Source of the DNA: Actinomycetota bacterium
GTDB taxonomy: Bacteria > Actinomycetota > Thermoleophilia > BMS3ABIN01
Direction of reading: 5' to 3'
DNA: 64,000 bases
Assembly (NCBI GenBank): GCA_016235065.1
Contig: JACRMB010000003.1
Coordinates: 345,943 to 409,942, forward strand
Position 1 is the first letter of the stretch, and each line of letters opens with the position of its first letter. The translations under genes were made by a program, and so were the position numbers. The notes below the pieces were generated by a model that was given only the letters and a program-made list of their open reading frames with translations, did no database searches and was not told where the DNA came from. This document shows, piece by piece, positions 19,111 through 49,132 of the stretch.

Positions 19111-19656
19111 ATGACGGCACTATTCAAAAACAGCATCATGATGGTATTGGCGGCAGGAATCCTTTTGATCTCGGCTGGTAGTGCGCTGGCAGCCCCGGGA
19201 GACGCTTACTATCCCGGACAGAATCTGCAGATAGATCCGGAGACTGCTGCGCAGCTCCAGGATATGATCGAGAGTGGGCAGCTCCAGCTGGCAGCTCCGG
19301 ATGAAGACGAAGACTATATAGTACCGCCGGATGAGCCGGCTGATGATGGCCAGGTGCCGGAAGATGAGGATGAGGGTGTCGAGCCCGGCGAGCCCGGCGA
19401 CGAGCCAGTTCCCGGCGATGATGAGCCTGGCTTCGACAATCCTGGTGATTCGGACAATCCGGATAATCCAGACAATCCTGGTAATCCTGATGTGTCCGGG
19501 ACCCCTCCAGTAACCGACCAGCCGCCAGCGACTACTGGGACCCCCGGGGCTTCTTCGAAGCTGCCCAATACCGGCTCGCATCTGCTAATCCTCGCAGGCC
19601 TGGGGCTGGCCCTGGCAGGTGCGGCTGTGCTGGCTCGCAGGGTCGTGGCGCGGTGA
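19111..19656 (+). CDS. Secreted acidic repeat protein with LPNTG anchor
   Basis: 181 residues. The signal peptide ends near SALA-APG. The mature part is strongly acidic (DEDEDYIVPPDEPADDG ...) and then a low-complexity D/N-P repeat (DNPGDSDNPDNPDNPGNP), probably an extended wall-spanning stalk. The C-terminus is LPNTG, a hydrophobic helix and RR, so sortase should anchor it to peptidoglycan. AAGGAGG precedes the ATG. A decapitated paralogue lies at 17069. No binding or catalytic domain is seen. Confidence 0.85.
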   Translation: MTALFKNSIMMVLAAGILLISAGSALAAPGDAYYPGQNLQIDPETAAQLQDMIESGQLQLAAPDEDEDYIVPPDEPADDGQVPEDEDEGVEPGEPGDEPVPGDDEPGFDNPGDSDNPDNPDNPGNPDVSGTPPVTDQPPATTGTPGASSKLPNTGSHLLILAGLGLALAGAAVLARRVVAR

Positions 19657-22254: not shown

Positions 22255-22282
22255 TTGAAATAGCTGACAATTGTGGTATTAT
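22255..22282 (+). promoter_or_regulatory. Sigma-70-like promoter for the RiPP precursor
   Basis: TTGAAA (22255-22260), 16 bases, TATTAT (22277-22282). Transcription would start near 22289, downstream of the in-frame GTG at 22273, which therefore should not be the start codon. Confidence 0.6.
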
Positions 22283-22356
22283 TTCAGAACCGCCCGATAT
22301 GCAGCAAAAAACTGTTTCTCCGCGGCAAAATCTTCGATTGGCAAGGGGGCAGCACC

Positions 22357-22524
22357 ATAGGAACGAAAGCACACAAGTGCGGTTATGAACGTCCGCGGCT
22401 GGTCAGGCTGGGAAATATCCGGGAGATCACCCGTAGTTCCCCCGGCTGGCAGTGCAGCTTTGGCGGCGAGCGCGACGATGACCATGAAGATGGCGGTCAT
22501 CGCGGCGGCGGCCGTCACCACTGA
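22357..22524 (+). CDS. Orphan RiPP precursor with lasso-type leader
   Basis: 55 residues if read from ATA 22357, which stands seven bases after AAGGGGG (22343-22349). There is no ATG, GTG or TTG between the promoter and the motif. Residues 10-25 fit the lasso-peptide leader pattern YxxPxLx3Gx5T exactly (Y10, P13, L15, G19, T25), which is bound by the RRE/B1 protein. The downstream part is SSPGWQCSFGG followed by an Asp/His/Gly/Arg-rich tail (ERDDDHEDGGHRGGGRHH). A lasso ring needs Asp/Glu at core position 7-9; cutting two residues after T25 does not give one, so the product may be a different RiPP or use another cleavage point. No cyclase, protease or RRE gene is in the window. Confidence 0.6.
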   Translation: MGTKAHKCGYERPRLVRLGNIREITRSSPGWQCSFGGERDDDHEDGGHRGGGRHH

Positions 22525-22950: not shown

Positions 22951-24726
22951 ATGAGAATCCTGAAGCCATCGCTTGCCGCCGCCCTGCTTGGAATCGTAAT
23001 CATCTTCACTCTGACCATCGGTACTATCTCCAGCGCCAGCGCTACCGTGCCCGCCGATTTCAAGCTTGGCGTCGCCCTGGAGTATCCTTCCACCCTGGCG
23101 AACTTCGAAAGCTCCGTCGGCCACAAGGCTGACATGTTCCTCTGGTACCAGTCCATCAGCGAGGACCTCGATACCGCGACTCTCGGGCCCATCGCCCAGG
23201 GCGGACGCTCCATCGAGCTCGCCTGGGAGTACTGGGACTTCGGCGCTCCTGACTTGGTGAATCAGCCGGCTTATCAGCTGCGCGACATCACCGCCGGCAA
23301 CTGGGACGCAGATATCCACCGGTGGGCGCGTCAGATCAAGGCGTTCGGTTATCCGGTCATCTTCAGGCCGATGAACGAGATGAATGGCAACTGGACCAGC
23401 TGGAGCGGCACCGTCAACGGCAACGTTCCTGCCGATTACATCCCGGCCTGGCGGCACATACACGATATCTTCGTGGCGGAGGGCGCCACCAACGCCGCGT
23501 TCCTCTGGTCGCCGAACCGGGATGGTTACAGCACTGACGCGGTCAACACCTTCAACACCTATTACCCCGGCGACGCCTATGTGGATTATGTGGGAATAGA
23601 TGGATACAACTGGGGCAGGATGTATACCTCTCCGGACTGGACATCCTCCTGGCAGTCGTTCACCGAAGTCTTCCGCTACAGCTACGATGCCTTCACAGCC
23701 AGGACAGCCAAGCCGGTGATCATCGCCGAGACCGCCAGCACCGAGATCGGCGGCGACAAGGCGGCGTGGATCACCGACGCCTTCGCCCAGCTGCCGGTGA
23801 GGTTCCCCAGGGTAGTCGGCCTGACCTGGTTCAACTACAACAAGGAGACTGACTGGCGGGTCAACAGCTCCGCCGCCAGTCTGGAAGCGTTCAGGACCGC
23901 GGTGACCGTGGCGCCGGCACCAGTGCCAGAGCCGGTGCCGACACCAGCACCGGAACCCGCGCCAACGCCCGAACCAGCACCGACGCCTGCACCAGAGCCG
24001 GTGCCGACACCAGAACCGACTCCGACGCCCACACCAGAACCGACTCCGACGCCAGCGCCTGAGCCGACGCCAGCACCGGCTCCCGAACCAACCCCGACTC
24101 CAACTCCTGAGCCGGCCCCAGCTCCTGACACAACCGCCCCAGTAGTCAGCATCATATCCCCGGTTTCGGGAACTATCCTTACCCGGGGAACGGTCAACGT
24201 GAGCGTTGCTGCCAGCGATGACACGGGGGTAGCCAGGGTCAAGCTGTTCCTCGGAGGCAAGCTGCTCGGTACCGACCGGACGGCTCCTTACGACTTCTCG
24301 TTCAATACGAAGGGGTTGGCCCGGGGCACTTATACGCTGACGGCCAAGGCCTTCGACGCAGCCGGCAACATGTCCTCGACGCAGGTGCAGGTGACTGTGC
24401 CGAGAAGCACCAAACCGAGCCTGAGCCTGGCTGGCGGATCTGTCTTCTGGGCGGATTACGCCGACTTCACCGCCCGGAAGCTGTCGGTCACCTATTCCGT
24501 GCAGAACGGTATGGGCGAACCGGCGGACAGCGTCCAGGTCATCGACGCATCGGGCACGGATGGCACAGCCAACATGACGCCGCTGGCGATGGATCTTGGC
24601 AGCATCGCGCCGGGCACTTCGACCGGTTTCACCCTGAAGTACAGAGTGCCTTCGGGAGTATCCCGGTTCACGACCGATATCCAGGTCGGCGCCCGGGACG
24701 AAGAAGGCAATTCTTATATATATTGA
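22951..24726 (+). CDS. Secreted GH26-like glycoside hydrolase with Pro-rich linker and Ig-like domain
   Basis: 591 residues from ATG 22951 (GAGGAG ten bases upstream). A signal peptide (about 1-32) is followed by a TIM-barrel of the GH26/beta-mannanase type: acid/base Glu in [16 protein letters not shown], likely nucleophile Glu in [11 protein letters not shown], and the closing strand [18 protein letters not shown]. Residues about 320-395 are a Pro/Thr/Glu/Ala linker. Next comes a Big_9-like Ig domain ([11 protein letters not shown] ... [23 protein letters not shown]), then a C-terminal beta domain with a CARDB/DUF11-like look. It probably acts outside the cell on a mannan-like or other beta-glycan; exact substrate is unknown. 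A paralogue lies at 38919. Confidence 0.82.
23911..24127 (+). repeat. Tandem Pro-rich linker repeat
   Basis: Degenerate short repeats encoding PTPEP/PAPEP units within the GH26-like gene. The DNA is repetitive enough to vary in length between strains. Confidence 0.8.
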
Positions 24727-37177: not shown

Positions 37178-38918
<1,741 letters not shown>

Positions 38919-40331
38919 ATGCCCGTCTTTGCCAGGAAAGCCAGTCTCATTTCCATGATCCTGCTGGTACTTGTCGCAGTAGCCATGGGTCTGCCTGCCC
39001 TGGACCCGGCTCAATCCGCCGCCACTCAGCCAGCTGTCGCCCAGCCCGCTGTCGTCGAGCCCGCCGCAGCTCAGCCCGCGGGCGTCGCGAGCACGTTCGC
39101 CGAGGGAACTGCTCCGTTCAACCTGGGCGTGGTTTTACAGGACCCGGGGGAGATCGGCAGTTTCGAGTCTGACATCGGGCGCCACGTGGACATCTTCCTC
39201 TGGTATCAATCCATGGACGAGACCCTGGACACGACGCCGCTCACCCAGGTGGCAGCCGGCGGGCGCTCCATCCAGATCTCCTGGGAGCCCATCCCACACC
39301 ACAGCCCGGTGCCGGTCGATCCTGCCCGCTACCGGCTCAAGAATTTCACCCGCGGTGATTACGACAGTGAGATCCGCCGCTGGGCCCGGGAGCTGCGCGA
39401 TTTCGGCTATCCGGTGCTGTTTCGTCCCATGTGTGAGATGAATGGCGACTGGAGCAGTTGGTCGGGGACTGCTAACGGCAACTCGCCAGCGGATTTCATC
39501 CCTGCCTGGCGGCACATGCACGATATCTTCGTCGAGGAGGGCGCCTACAATGTCGACTGGCTCTGGTCACCCAATCGCGATGGGTCCACAGCCAACGCCA
39601 TCAACACTTTCGATAGCTATTATCCCGGCGACGCCTATGTCGACTACATCGGCTTCAGTGGTTACAACTGGGGCACCATGTACAACACTCCGTCCTGGAT
39701 CTCTTCCTGGCAGGGATTCGAGGAGGTCTTCGGTTACAGCTACGACGTCATGGCTTCGCGGACTAACAAGCCGATCGTCGTCGCGGAGATGGCGAGCACC
39801 GAACTGGGAGGAAACAAGGCTCAGTGGATAACCGACGCCTTTGCCATGATCCCCAGTCGCTTTCCGCGGATTGTGGGCATCACCTGGTTCAATCTGAACA
39901 AGGAGTGCGACTGGCGGGTGCAGAGCAGCCCCGGCAGCCTGCAGGCTTTCAGGGCGGCGATAAGCAGCCTGGATTCCACCCCGCGCCAGTGCGGCATGCC
40001 CAGCTTGAACATGCAGGCGAACAGGAGTTACTGGGCCAGTTACGCCGATTACGGCCACCGGTTCCTGACGGTGGATTTCACACTGGCCAACGCCGGCCCC
40101 TGGGATGCATATAACGTCAACCTCTATAACAGCTGGAGTACGAGCGGGGTGTCCATGGAAACGGGGCTGCCGCTATTTGTGGGCAACATTCCGGTGGGGC
40201 TCAGTTCCCTCATCACCCTGAAGTACAGCATCCCGGCCGGGGTCAATTCCTACTACACGTCGGTCCATGCGACCGTGAACGACTATTGCGGTTCCATCTA
40301 CCGGTTCCCGCGGATGAATAACAGGATCTGA
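38919..40331 (+). CDS. Secreted GH26-like glycoside hydrolase, second copy
   Basis: About 470 residues, paralogous to the gene at 22951 over barrel and C-terminal beta domain (SYWASYADYGHRFLTVDFTL), but without the Pro linker and Ig domain. The signal peptide is followed by an Ala/Pro/Gln repeat (ATQPAVAQPAVVEPAAAQPAG). The acid/base Glu motif is FRPMCEMNGDWSSWSG, with Cys where the first copy has Asn. The nucleophile Glu is in KPIVVAEMAST. The catalytic Glu pair is present, so activity is plausible; substrate unknown. TTG 38916 just before the ATG is an equal candidate start (GGGAG upstream). Confidence 0.82.
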   Translation: MPVFARKASLISMILLVLVAVAMGLPALDPAQSAATQPAVAQPAVVEPAAAQPAGVASTFAEGTAPFNLGVVLQDPGEIGSFESDIGRHVDIFLWYQSMDETLDTTPLTQVAAGGRSIQISWEPIPHHSPVPVDPARYRLKNFTRGDYDSEIRRWARELRDFGYPVLFRPMCEMNGDWSSWSGTANGNSPADFIPAWRHMHDIFVEEGAYNVDWLWSPNRDGSTANAINTFDSYYPGDAYVDYIGFSGYNWGTMYNTPSWISSWQGFEEVFGYSYDVMASRTNKPIVVAEMASTELGGNKAQWITDAFAMIPSRFPRIVGITWFNLNKECDWRVQSSPGSLQAFRAAISSLDSTPRQCGMPSLNMQANRSYWASYADYGHRFLTVDFTLANAGPWDAYNVNLYNSWSTSGVSMETGLPLFVGNIPVGLSSLITLKYSIPAGVNSYYTSVHATVNDYCGSIYRFPRMNNRI

Positions 40332-48392: not shown

Positions 48393-48649
48393 CAGTCGAA
48401 TCGTAGCGGGCGGCGCCGGGGAAGGCAAGGAGGCGGGAGGCTGGCGTTCAGGGCCGACAGCCGGTGGAGGATGCGGGGATCCAGTCTTCCGGGAGCATCG
48501 CCGAGTGCCTGGGGGCAGGAATTTTGACGGCGGTGGGCAAAATGAAATAACATAGTCAGCCGAATGGCGCTTCTGAACGTGCCATGCAGGATGTGAAGTC
48601 ATGAACGGGACTATCCTGAATATTCAACCTGATCGACGGAGGAATGATA

Positions 48650-49132
48650 ATGAAACTGAAGTTAGCGCTTATAATGATGATCGGTGTGATACTCGCTCTC
48701 GGATTCGCTGGAGCAGCCATGGGCCAGTCGTGGTGTGACACAGTCGCCCTGTCTGGAGAAACCGGCCAGCCCGGCGCCACGATCGGTGTCAGTGGCACTG
48801 CATACTGGGGCGATGATGTGACTGTCACTTTTGACGGCACCGTAGTAGCTGCGGCCGTCGCCGACGAATACAATGAGTTCAGCACCAGCTTCGTGGTGCC
48901 CGCTGATGCGACCGTCGGCGATCACGAAGTGATTGTCACGGAGTCGGGCGAAGGCCAAAGGAGCTGCACCTATCCGTTTGCGGTCCTTGCGGCCACGGCT
49001 CCCGCAGCCGAGGTTCCGGTAGCAGCAGCCCTTCCGGCTACACTGCCCGCGACGGGCTTCATGCTGGTTCCCGCTGGAGGCCTGCTTGCGAGCGGTCTCG
49101 GGATACTGCTGTTCAGGAAGCGCCGCCGGTAA
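48650..49132 (+). CDS. Secreted beta-domain protein with LPATG anchor
   Basis: 160 residues. A signal peptide ends near AAMGQ; an Ig-like or DUF-type beta-sandwich follows (WCDTVALSGETGQPGATIGVSGTAYWGDDVTVTFDG ... GDHEVIVTESGEG) with a Cys pair (WC ... SC). It ends LPATG, a hydrophobic segment and RKRRR, a sortase signal. ATG 48650 is chosen over 48644 because GGAGG is correctly spaced from it. Monocistronic with a strong terminator. Confidence 0.85.
   Translation: MKLKLALIMMIGVILALGFAGAAMGQSWCDTVALSGETGQPGATIGVSGTAYWGDDVTVTFDGTVVAAAVADEYNEFSTSFVVPADATVGDHEVIVTESGEGQRSCTYPFAVLAATAPAAEVPVAAALPATLPATGFMLVPAGGLLASGLGILLFRKRRR

Follow-up and report, generated by a model that had tools for sequence, protein, structure and literature searches.

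A peptide gene with a lasso-type leader

The stretch of DNA analysed here, a window of 64,000 nucleotides from a Thermoleophilia genome (G000 in the numbering used below), harbours a short peptide gene that ends with the TGA at 22522-22524 and lies just upstream, and not downstream, of the gene for a secreted GH26-like protein with a C-terminal domain termed YADYT, an arrangement kept in genome G005 (locus L074; Table 1). An earlier note made from the sequence had described this reading frame and an exact YxxPxLx3Gx5T leader, and both are borne out: the Y is encoded at 22384 and the T at 22429-22431, and the peptide scores 23.3 bits against the NCBIfam model NF033521 (lasso_leader_L3; cut-off 19), a cut-off exceeded by two copies of the precursor family. 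The lack of a ring acid after the usual cut was equally read correctly, as with the Thr at -2 the core positions 7-9 are C7, S8 and F9 and include neither Asp nor Glu. The frame closes with ...GYERPRLVRLGNIREITRSSPGWQCSFGGERDDDHEDGGHRGGGRHH*, and its WQCS core and Asp/His/Gly tail mark the window peptide as a divergent member within the family described below.

The start codon of the window gene is uncertain because the nearest in-frame canonical start, and the only one, is the GTG at 22273, and because ACG (22363) replaces the ATG of the G005 orthologue. The previously reported length of 55 codons requires an ATA start. A Shine-Dalgarno-like AAGGGGG is common to the window gene and the G005 orthologue. 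The window copy may rely on a weak start codon or be in the early stages of decay; an error in the sequencing is conceivable too. A non-canonical ATA or ACG start is possible at 22357-22365, and several relatives are likewise without an ATG.

Table 1. Coordinates of the precursor gene, YADYT-domain features and remote processing genes (window positions unless a contig is named)
Feature	Position	Strand	Remarks
Precursor peptide gene	22357..22524	+	55 codons from ATA, or 83 aa from GTG 22273
Lasso-type leader motif YERPRLVRLGNIREIT	22384..22431	+	Exact YxxPxLx3Gx5T; NF033521 match
WQCS core signature	22447..22458	+	Alignment A2: W, C, S each at least 90% conserved; present in nearly all members
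Asp/His/Gly/Arg-rich tail FGGERDDDHEDGGHRGGGRHH	22459..22521	+	Typical of subfamily II
Secreted GH26-like protein	22951..24726	+	PF02156, PF17957 over cut-off; Pro-rich linker, Ig-like domain, YADYT C-terminus
YADYT domain of first GH26-like protein	24400..24723	+	Alignments A1, A3
Second window YADYT domain	39984..40319	+	At the C-terminus of a further GH26-like secreted protein (38916-40331); not followed by a precursor
B1, PqqD-type RRE	C5:294051-294248		PF05402 (PqqD) over cut-off
B2, Transglut_core3 leader protease	C5:294331-294672		NF033537 and PF13471 over cut-offs

A dispersed family of precursors

The window gene is not the orphan it had been taken for but belongs to a set of some ten paralogues scattered over the genome. 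A tblastn-type search retrieved 11 such loci on several contigs of G000 and 4-12 loci in each of 19 genomes of one Thermoleophilia family, and a profile search through 249 genomes of the class found precursors in all 19 family genomes but not in any of the other 230, so that an orphan or chance open reading frame can be ruled out. The relatives that carry a name are Thermoleophilia metagenome-assembled genomes including DeMMO3_11, BMS3Abin01, SURF_19 and DBS2-1, several of which are identical to assemblies already numbered here and therefore not independent evidence. A mobile repeat was rejected because the paralogues are alike in protein and not in DNA, with saturated synonymous sites, and because plasmid matches are absent. 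The contigs of loci L096, L099, L103, L105, L120, L129, L131 and L132 have a precursor gene at or close to their first base; assemblies may break at these nearly identical repeats, and copy numbers in fragmented genomes may therefore be too low.

Homologues keep the leader motif, and two subfamilies can be distinguished by their cores. Subfamily I, to which eight of the 11 genes in G000 belong, has the near-identical end (F/Y)ECPxWQCSVxVPPxP with C7, S8 and V9 when the Thr is at -2, and a leader in which the motif Gly is mostly another residue (Asp/Glu-Asn or similar); the single member scanned against NCBIfam matched no family. Subfamily II, which includes the window copy, combines W-x-C-S with a tail in which Asp, His, Gly or Ser abound. 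The metal-binding-looking tail noticed earlier is present as described but confined to this minority of the family. Three short-spaced members of this subfamily (TAEWQCSFADD, TASWQCSLGGDD and TAEWQCSVDV) have Asp or Glu at 7-9 even with the Thr at -2. The subfamily II loci L010, L076, L084, L085, L088, L089 and L090 recur near Rieske-like, small Cys-rich (DUF2769-like), pyridine-nucleotide reductase-like and UspA-like genes, all named by eye.

A remote enzyme operon without a cyclase

The earlier note was right that no biosynthetic genes surround the window precursor, as the enzymes sit on another contig. A single PqqD-type gene (B1) and a single Transglut_core3 gene (B2) of G000 lie side by side on contig C5, in an operon with the order HprK-like kinase, B1, B2 and DUF2079 membrane protein, which has no lasso cyclase gene. 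The order kinase-B1-B2 recurs in most of the 16 B1/B2 loci, as a rule accompanied by the DUF2079 gene, and the operon adjoins hemW/hrcA-like and glycosyltransferase genes. Nearly all genomes of the family carry the B1/B2 pair, an RRE and a protease with conserved motifs that reside in the same genomes as the precursors. B1 matches PqqD families of lasso type but, with 57.6 of 80 bits, falls short of their strict cut-offs. The Cys and GHSW motifs of B2 are present in at least 90% of the sequences (15-16 genomes), and the same holds for the kinase motifs HAAGL, GxSGSGKS and DD. Proven lasso kinases carry the motif H, GxxGxGKS, DD, and one of them, BsfK, phosphorylates an internal core Ser (Ser3) aided by its B1 (PMC10368454). 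The operon contains neither a transporter or exporter gene nor a receptor; a radical SAM/SPASM-like gene follows 3' of it in six loci and an NTP_transf_5 nucleotidyltransferase in some. A further gene for an HprK-like kinase is found on contig C3 of G000 (L011, 15135-16181), flanked by two precursor genes. The earlier reading as a whole is supported in part; its suggestion of a RiPP class with a borrowed lasso leader and a remote RRE agrees well with the data, in that homologues keep the leader and that a single remote RRE (B1)/B2/kinase operon is present, with the cyclase missing.

How far this inventory resembles that of a lasso peptide can be read from its parts. Present are the YxxPxLx3Gx5T leader in the window copy and B1 and B2 in the genome; absent are the cyclase C in the cluster, as none of the 16 B1/B2 loci contains a lasso cyclase or Asn-synthetase-like gene, and Asp or Glu at core positions 7-9 outside the three short-spaced members. 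Judged from their cores, which have no acid at the ring-forming positions, subfamily I peptides cannot form a lasso macrolactam and are not lasso peptides in the defined sense, while for the three short-spaced members of subfamily II, whose sequences fit the ring rule, a lasso product may be formed.

True lasso peptides would require that a remote Asn-synthetase-like protein, for example the pair on contig C9, closes the macrolactam and that Trp is residue 1 in the acidic subfamily. Leader, B1 and B2 of lasso type would agree with this, as would the three full-length Asn synthetases encoded in G000, the Asp or Glu at 7-9 from the Trp in many acidic-subfamily members and the three short-spaced sequences. 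However, the G000 Asn synthetases fit general asparagine synthase or amidotransferase models best and fall far short of the lasso cyclase cut-off of 525 bits, an acidic tail yields Asp or Glu at 7-9 easily by chance, and the main subfamily has no ring acid. Moreover, G008, a genome 98% complete, holds B1, B2 and about ten precursors, yet an Asn_synthase search found two weak fragments only and no full-length Asn synthetase. With the B1/B2 loci themselves devoid of such a gene, we consider true lasso peptides rather unlikely.

Selection for a genome-private core

Among the eight subfamily I paralogues of G000, pN/pS is 0.056 in the core (pS 0.57) and 0.29 in the leader; the core is under strong purifying selection, and synonymous sites are saturated. 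A comparison of 81 peptides from 12 genomes gives a core identity of 0.873 for peptides of the same genome and 0.770 for those of different genomes, a difference that none of 300 permutations equalled, whereas the corresponding leader identities, 0.637 and 0.628, do not differ. The nearest neighbour by core resides in the same genome for 46 of the 81 peptides (6 expected) and the nearest by leader for 9 of 81. Cores are private to genomes, with ECPQW in G000, ECPNW in G001, ECPAW in G002 and G005, ECPDW in G007 and ECSGW in G016. Gene conversion or recent duplication does not account for the like cores, given a synonymous codon divergence that is equal within and between genomes. Dispersed old paralogues hence share one genome-private core without homogenisation of their DNA, and since cores are alike within a genome while leaders and synonymous divergence do not differ, the pattern points to a single common partner per genome that constrains all cores.

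A core that is private to the genome and common to its paralogues would also be expected of a species-private, pheromone-like signal peptide, secreted or displayed on the surface and carried along with surface protein operons. The operon, however, has no dedicated exporter or receptor, and ten redundant copies behind different surface proteins would be unusual for a signal, which makes this reading improbable.

Linkage to YADYT surface proteins

YADYT is an Ig-like C-terminal domain of about 110 residues found on varied secreted proteins (alignments A1, A3). G000 holds 38 copies, located at the very C-terminus in 31 of the 34 examined, and seven of its 11 precursors begin shortly 3' of a gene for a secreted protein that ends in this domain. 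In 12 genomes, upstream sequence was sufficient for 77 subfamily I genes, of which 58 start at most 400 bp after a YADYT open reading frame and 19 have no YADYT neighbour; conversely, no precursor stands behind 27 of the 34 YADYT proteins examined in G000. By simple arithmetic (about 120 bp, right strand, 38 domains in 2.37 Mb), adjacency by chance is about 0.001 per precursor. The partner proteins are diverse and comprise beta-propeller-like repeats (by eye), ethylbenzene dehydrogenase-like and rhodanese proteins or the YADYT domain alone. A GH39-like (by eye) secreted glycosidase-like protein with a YADYT domain (L035, 8198-9706) is encoded in the polysaccharide region beside the B1/B2 operon.

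No Pfam family exceeded its cut-off for the YADYT member tabulated. The commonest weak match is CARDB (best E 0.014, two of ten members; 13.9 bits for the first member, cut-off 22.7), and DUF7507 matches one member with an E of 2.7e-5. The predicted fold is an Ig-like sandwich (pLDDT 96), and a PDB search gave no match at E < 0.001; a known fold relative was rejected, all matches being weak and Ig-like. In a phylum-wide sample, three family members were positive for the domain and none of the 195 others. A single clade of precursor-linked YADYT domains was likewise rejected (6 changes in the tree versus 6.5 in shuffles), and the link between precursor and domain is positional only, since the linked copies form no group in the domain tree. 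Readthrough or a frameshift fusing the peptide to the upstream protein was also discarded, as the spacing phases are 25/19/15 and none is fixed. Two small secreted proteins of the window (19111-19656 and 48644-49132) end in LPxTG-like sorting signals (LPNTG, LPATG), from which ordinary sortase anchoring probably exists too.

The tight coupling to YADYT genes could also mean that the peptide is an unprocessed small partner, a chaperone or subunit of the domain, with an incidental likeness to a leader. This is very improbable given the exact lasso leader of the window copy, the two copies above the NF033521 cut-off, the B1/B2 pair in nearly every family genome and cores that follow a genome-wide and not a partner-specific constraint. 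A cofactor or crosslinked peptide derived from a RiPP, comparable to PQQ and mycofactocin, in which C..W.CS would be joined and used by neighbouring secreted or redox proteins, might explain the invariant C, W, C and S, the redox-looking neighbours (ethylbenzene dehydrogenase-like, rhodanese and C_GCAxxG_C_C proteins, Rieske-like near subfamily II) and the radical SAM/SPASM-like gene 3' of the operon in six loci. On the other hand, core positions 4, 5, 11 and 14 vary by genome, which would be odd in a small cofactor, the radical SAM gene lies outside the operon and is missing from some loci, and many partners are glycosidases or proteins without a known family; we regard a cofactor as unlikely.

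A proposed peptide system for surface proteins

Building on the observed family, the presence of the enzymes, the linkage to surface genes and the selection pattern, we favour, with moderate confidence, a cyclase-less RiPP system with a lasso leader that serves surface proteins. B1, as the RRE, would bind the YxxPxLx3(G/N)x5T leader, the HprK-like kinase would phosphorylate a core residue, with the conserved Ser of WxCS as the best candidate, and B2 would cut the leader near the Thr to release a short peptide that is no lasso, ECPxWQCSVxVPPxP, in which the Cys residues may be linked. The mature peptide would then act together with the surface proteins encoded alongside it, serving all of them as a ligand, tag or anchor. 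The WQCS-Asp/His form of the window would be processed by the same enzymes and have a specialised tail. RRE binding, phosphorylation, cleavage and action with surface proteins we infer, and the model is least secure where it moves from linkage to a physical association. Against it stand the 19 unlinked genes, the YADYT proteins without a precursor, the scatter of precursor-linked domains over the domain tree, the lack of an exporter in the operon and, for the window copy, its position upstream of its YADYT gene and the want of a canonical start where the orthologue has one. Held more tentatively, and with somewhat less than an even chance, is a new RiPP class that belongs to cell-surface biogenesis and not to natural-product synthesis, in which one cyclase-less enzyme set of lasso type and ten dispersed precursors yield the same species-private peptide, produced along with the YADYT proteins and bound or attached to their new domain.

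If true, lasso-type leaders would be recognised here without a lasso being made, in the service of a housekeeping role at the cell surface. With precursors and enzymes far apart, systems of this kind would escape RiPP mining based on gene clusters. Equally, genome-private cores under a common constraint would imply a single partner, which can be sought directly.

Relation to known systems

No description of such a system was found in the open-access literature, and it is filed here as a variant under RRE-dependent RiPP systems and not as a lasso peptide. With the split B1/B2 lasso systems of paeninodin and the Bradymonas bsf cluster it shares the leader motif, the PqqD-type B1, the transglutaminase-like B2 and an HprK-like kinase with its catalytic motif, and the NTP_transf_5 gene of some loci recalls the predicted nucleotidyltransferase of the bsf cluster (PMC10368454). 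Unlike these, it lacks cyclase and transporter genes, its precursors are apart from the enzymes, its main core has no ring acid and each genome has about ten precursor genes.

In prochlorosin-type systems, one enzyme acts on many dispersed precursors with a hypervariable core. One remote enzyme set and many scattered precursor genes are common to both, whereas in the present family it is the core that is better conserved within a genome and the leader that varies more. XrtA/PEP-CTERM is a C-terminal sorting system tied to glycan loci, with a short motif and a transmembrane helix as its signal. Varied secreted proteins with a common C-terminal domain and enzymes beside polysaccharide genes recall that system; here, however, the domain is a folded Ig-like one, and what is linked to it is a peptide with a gene of its own.
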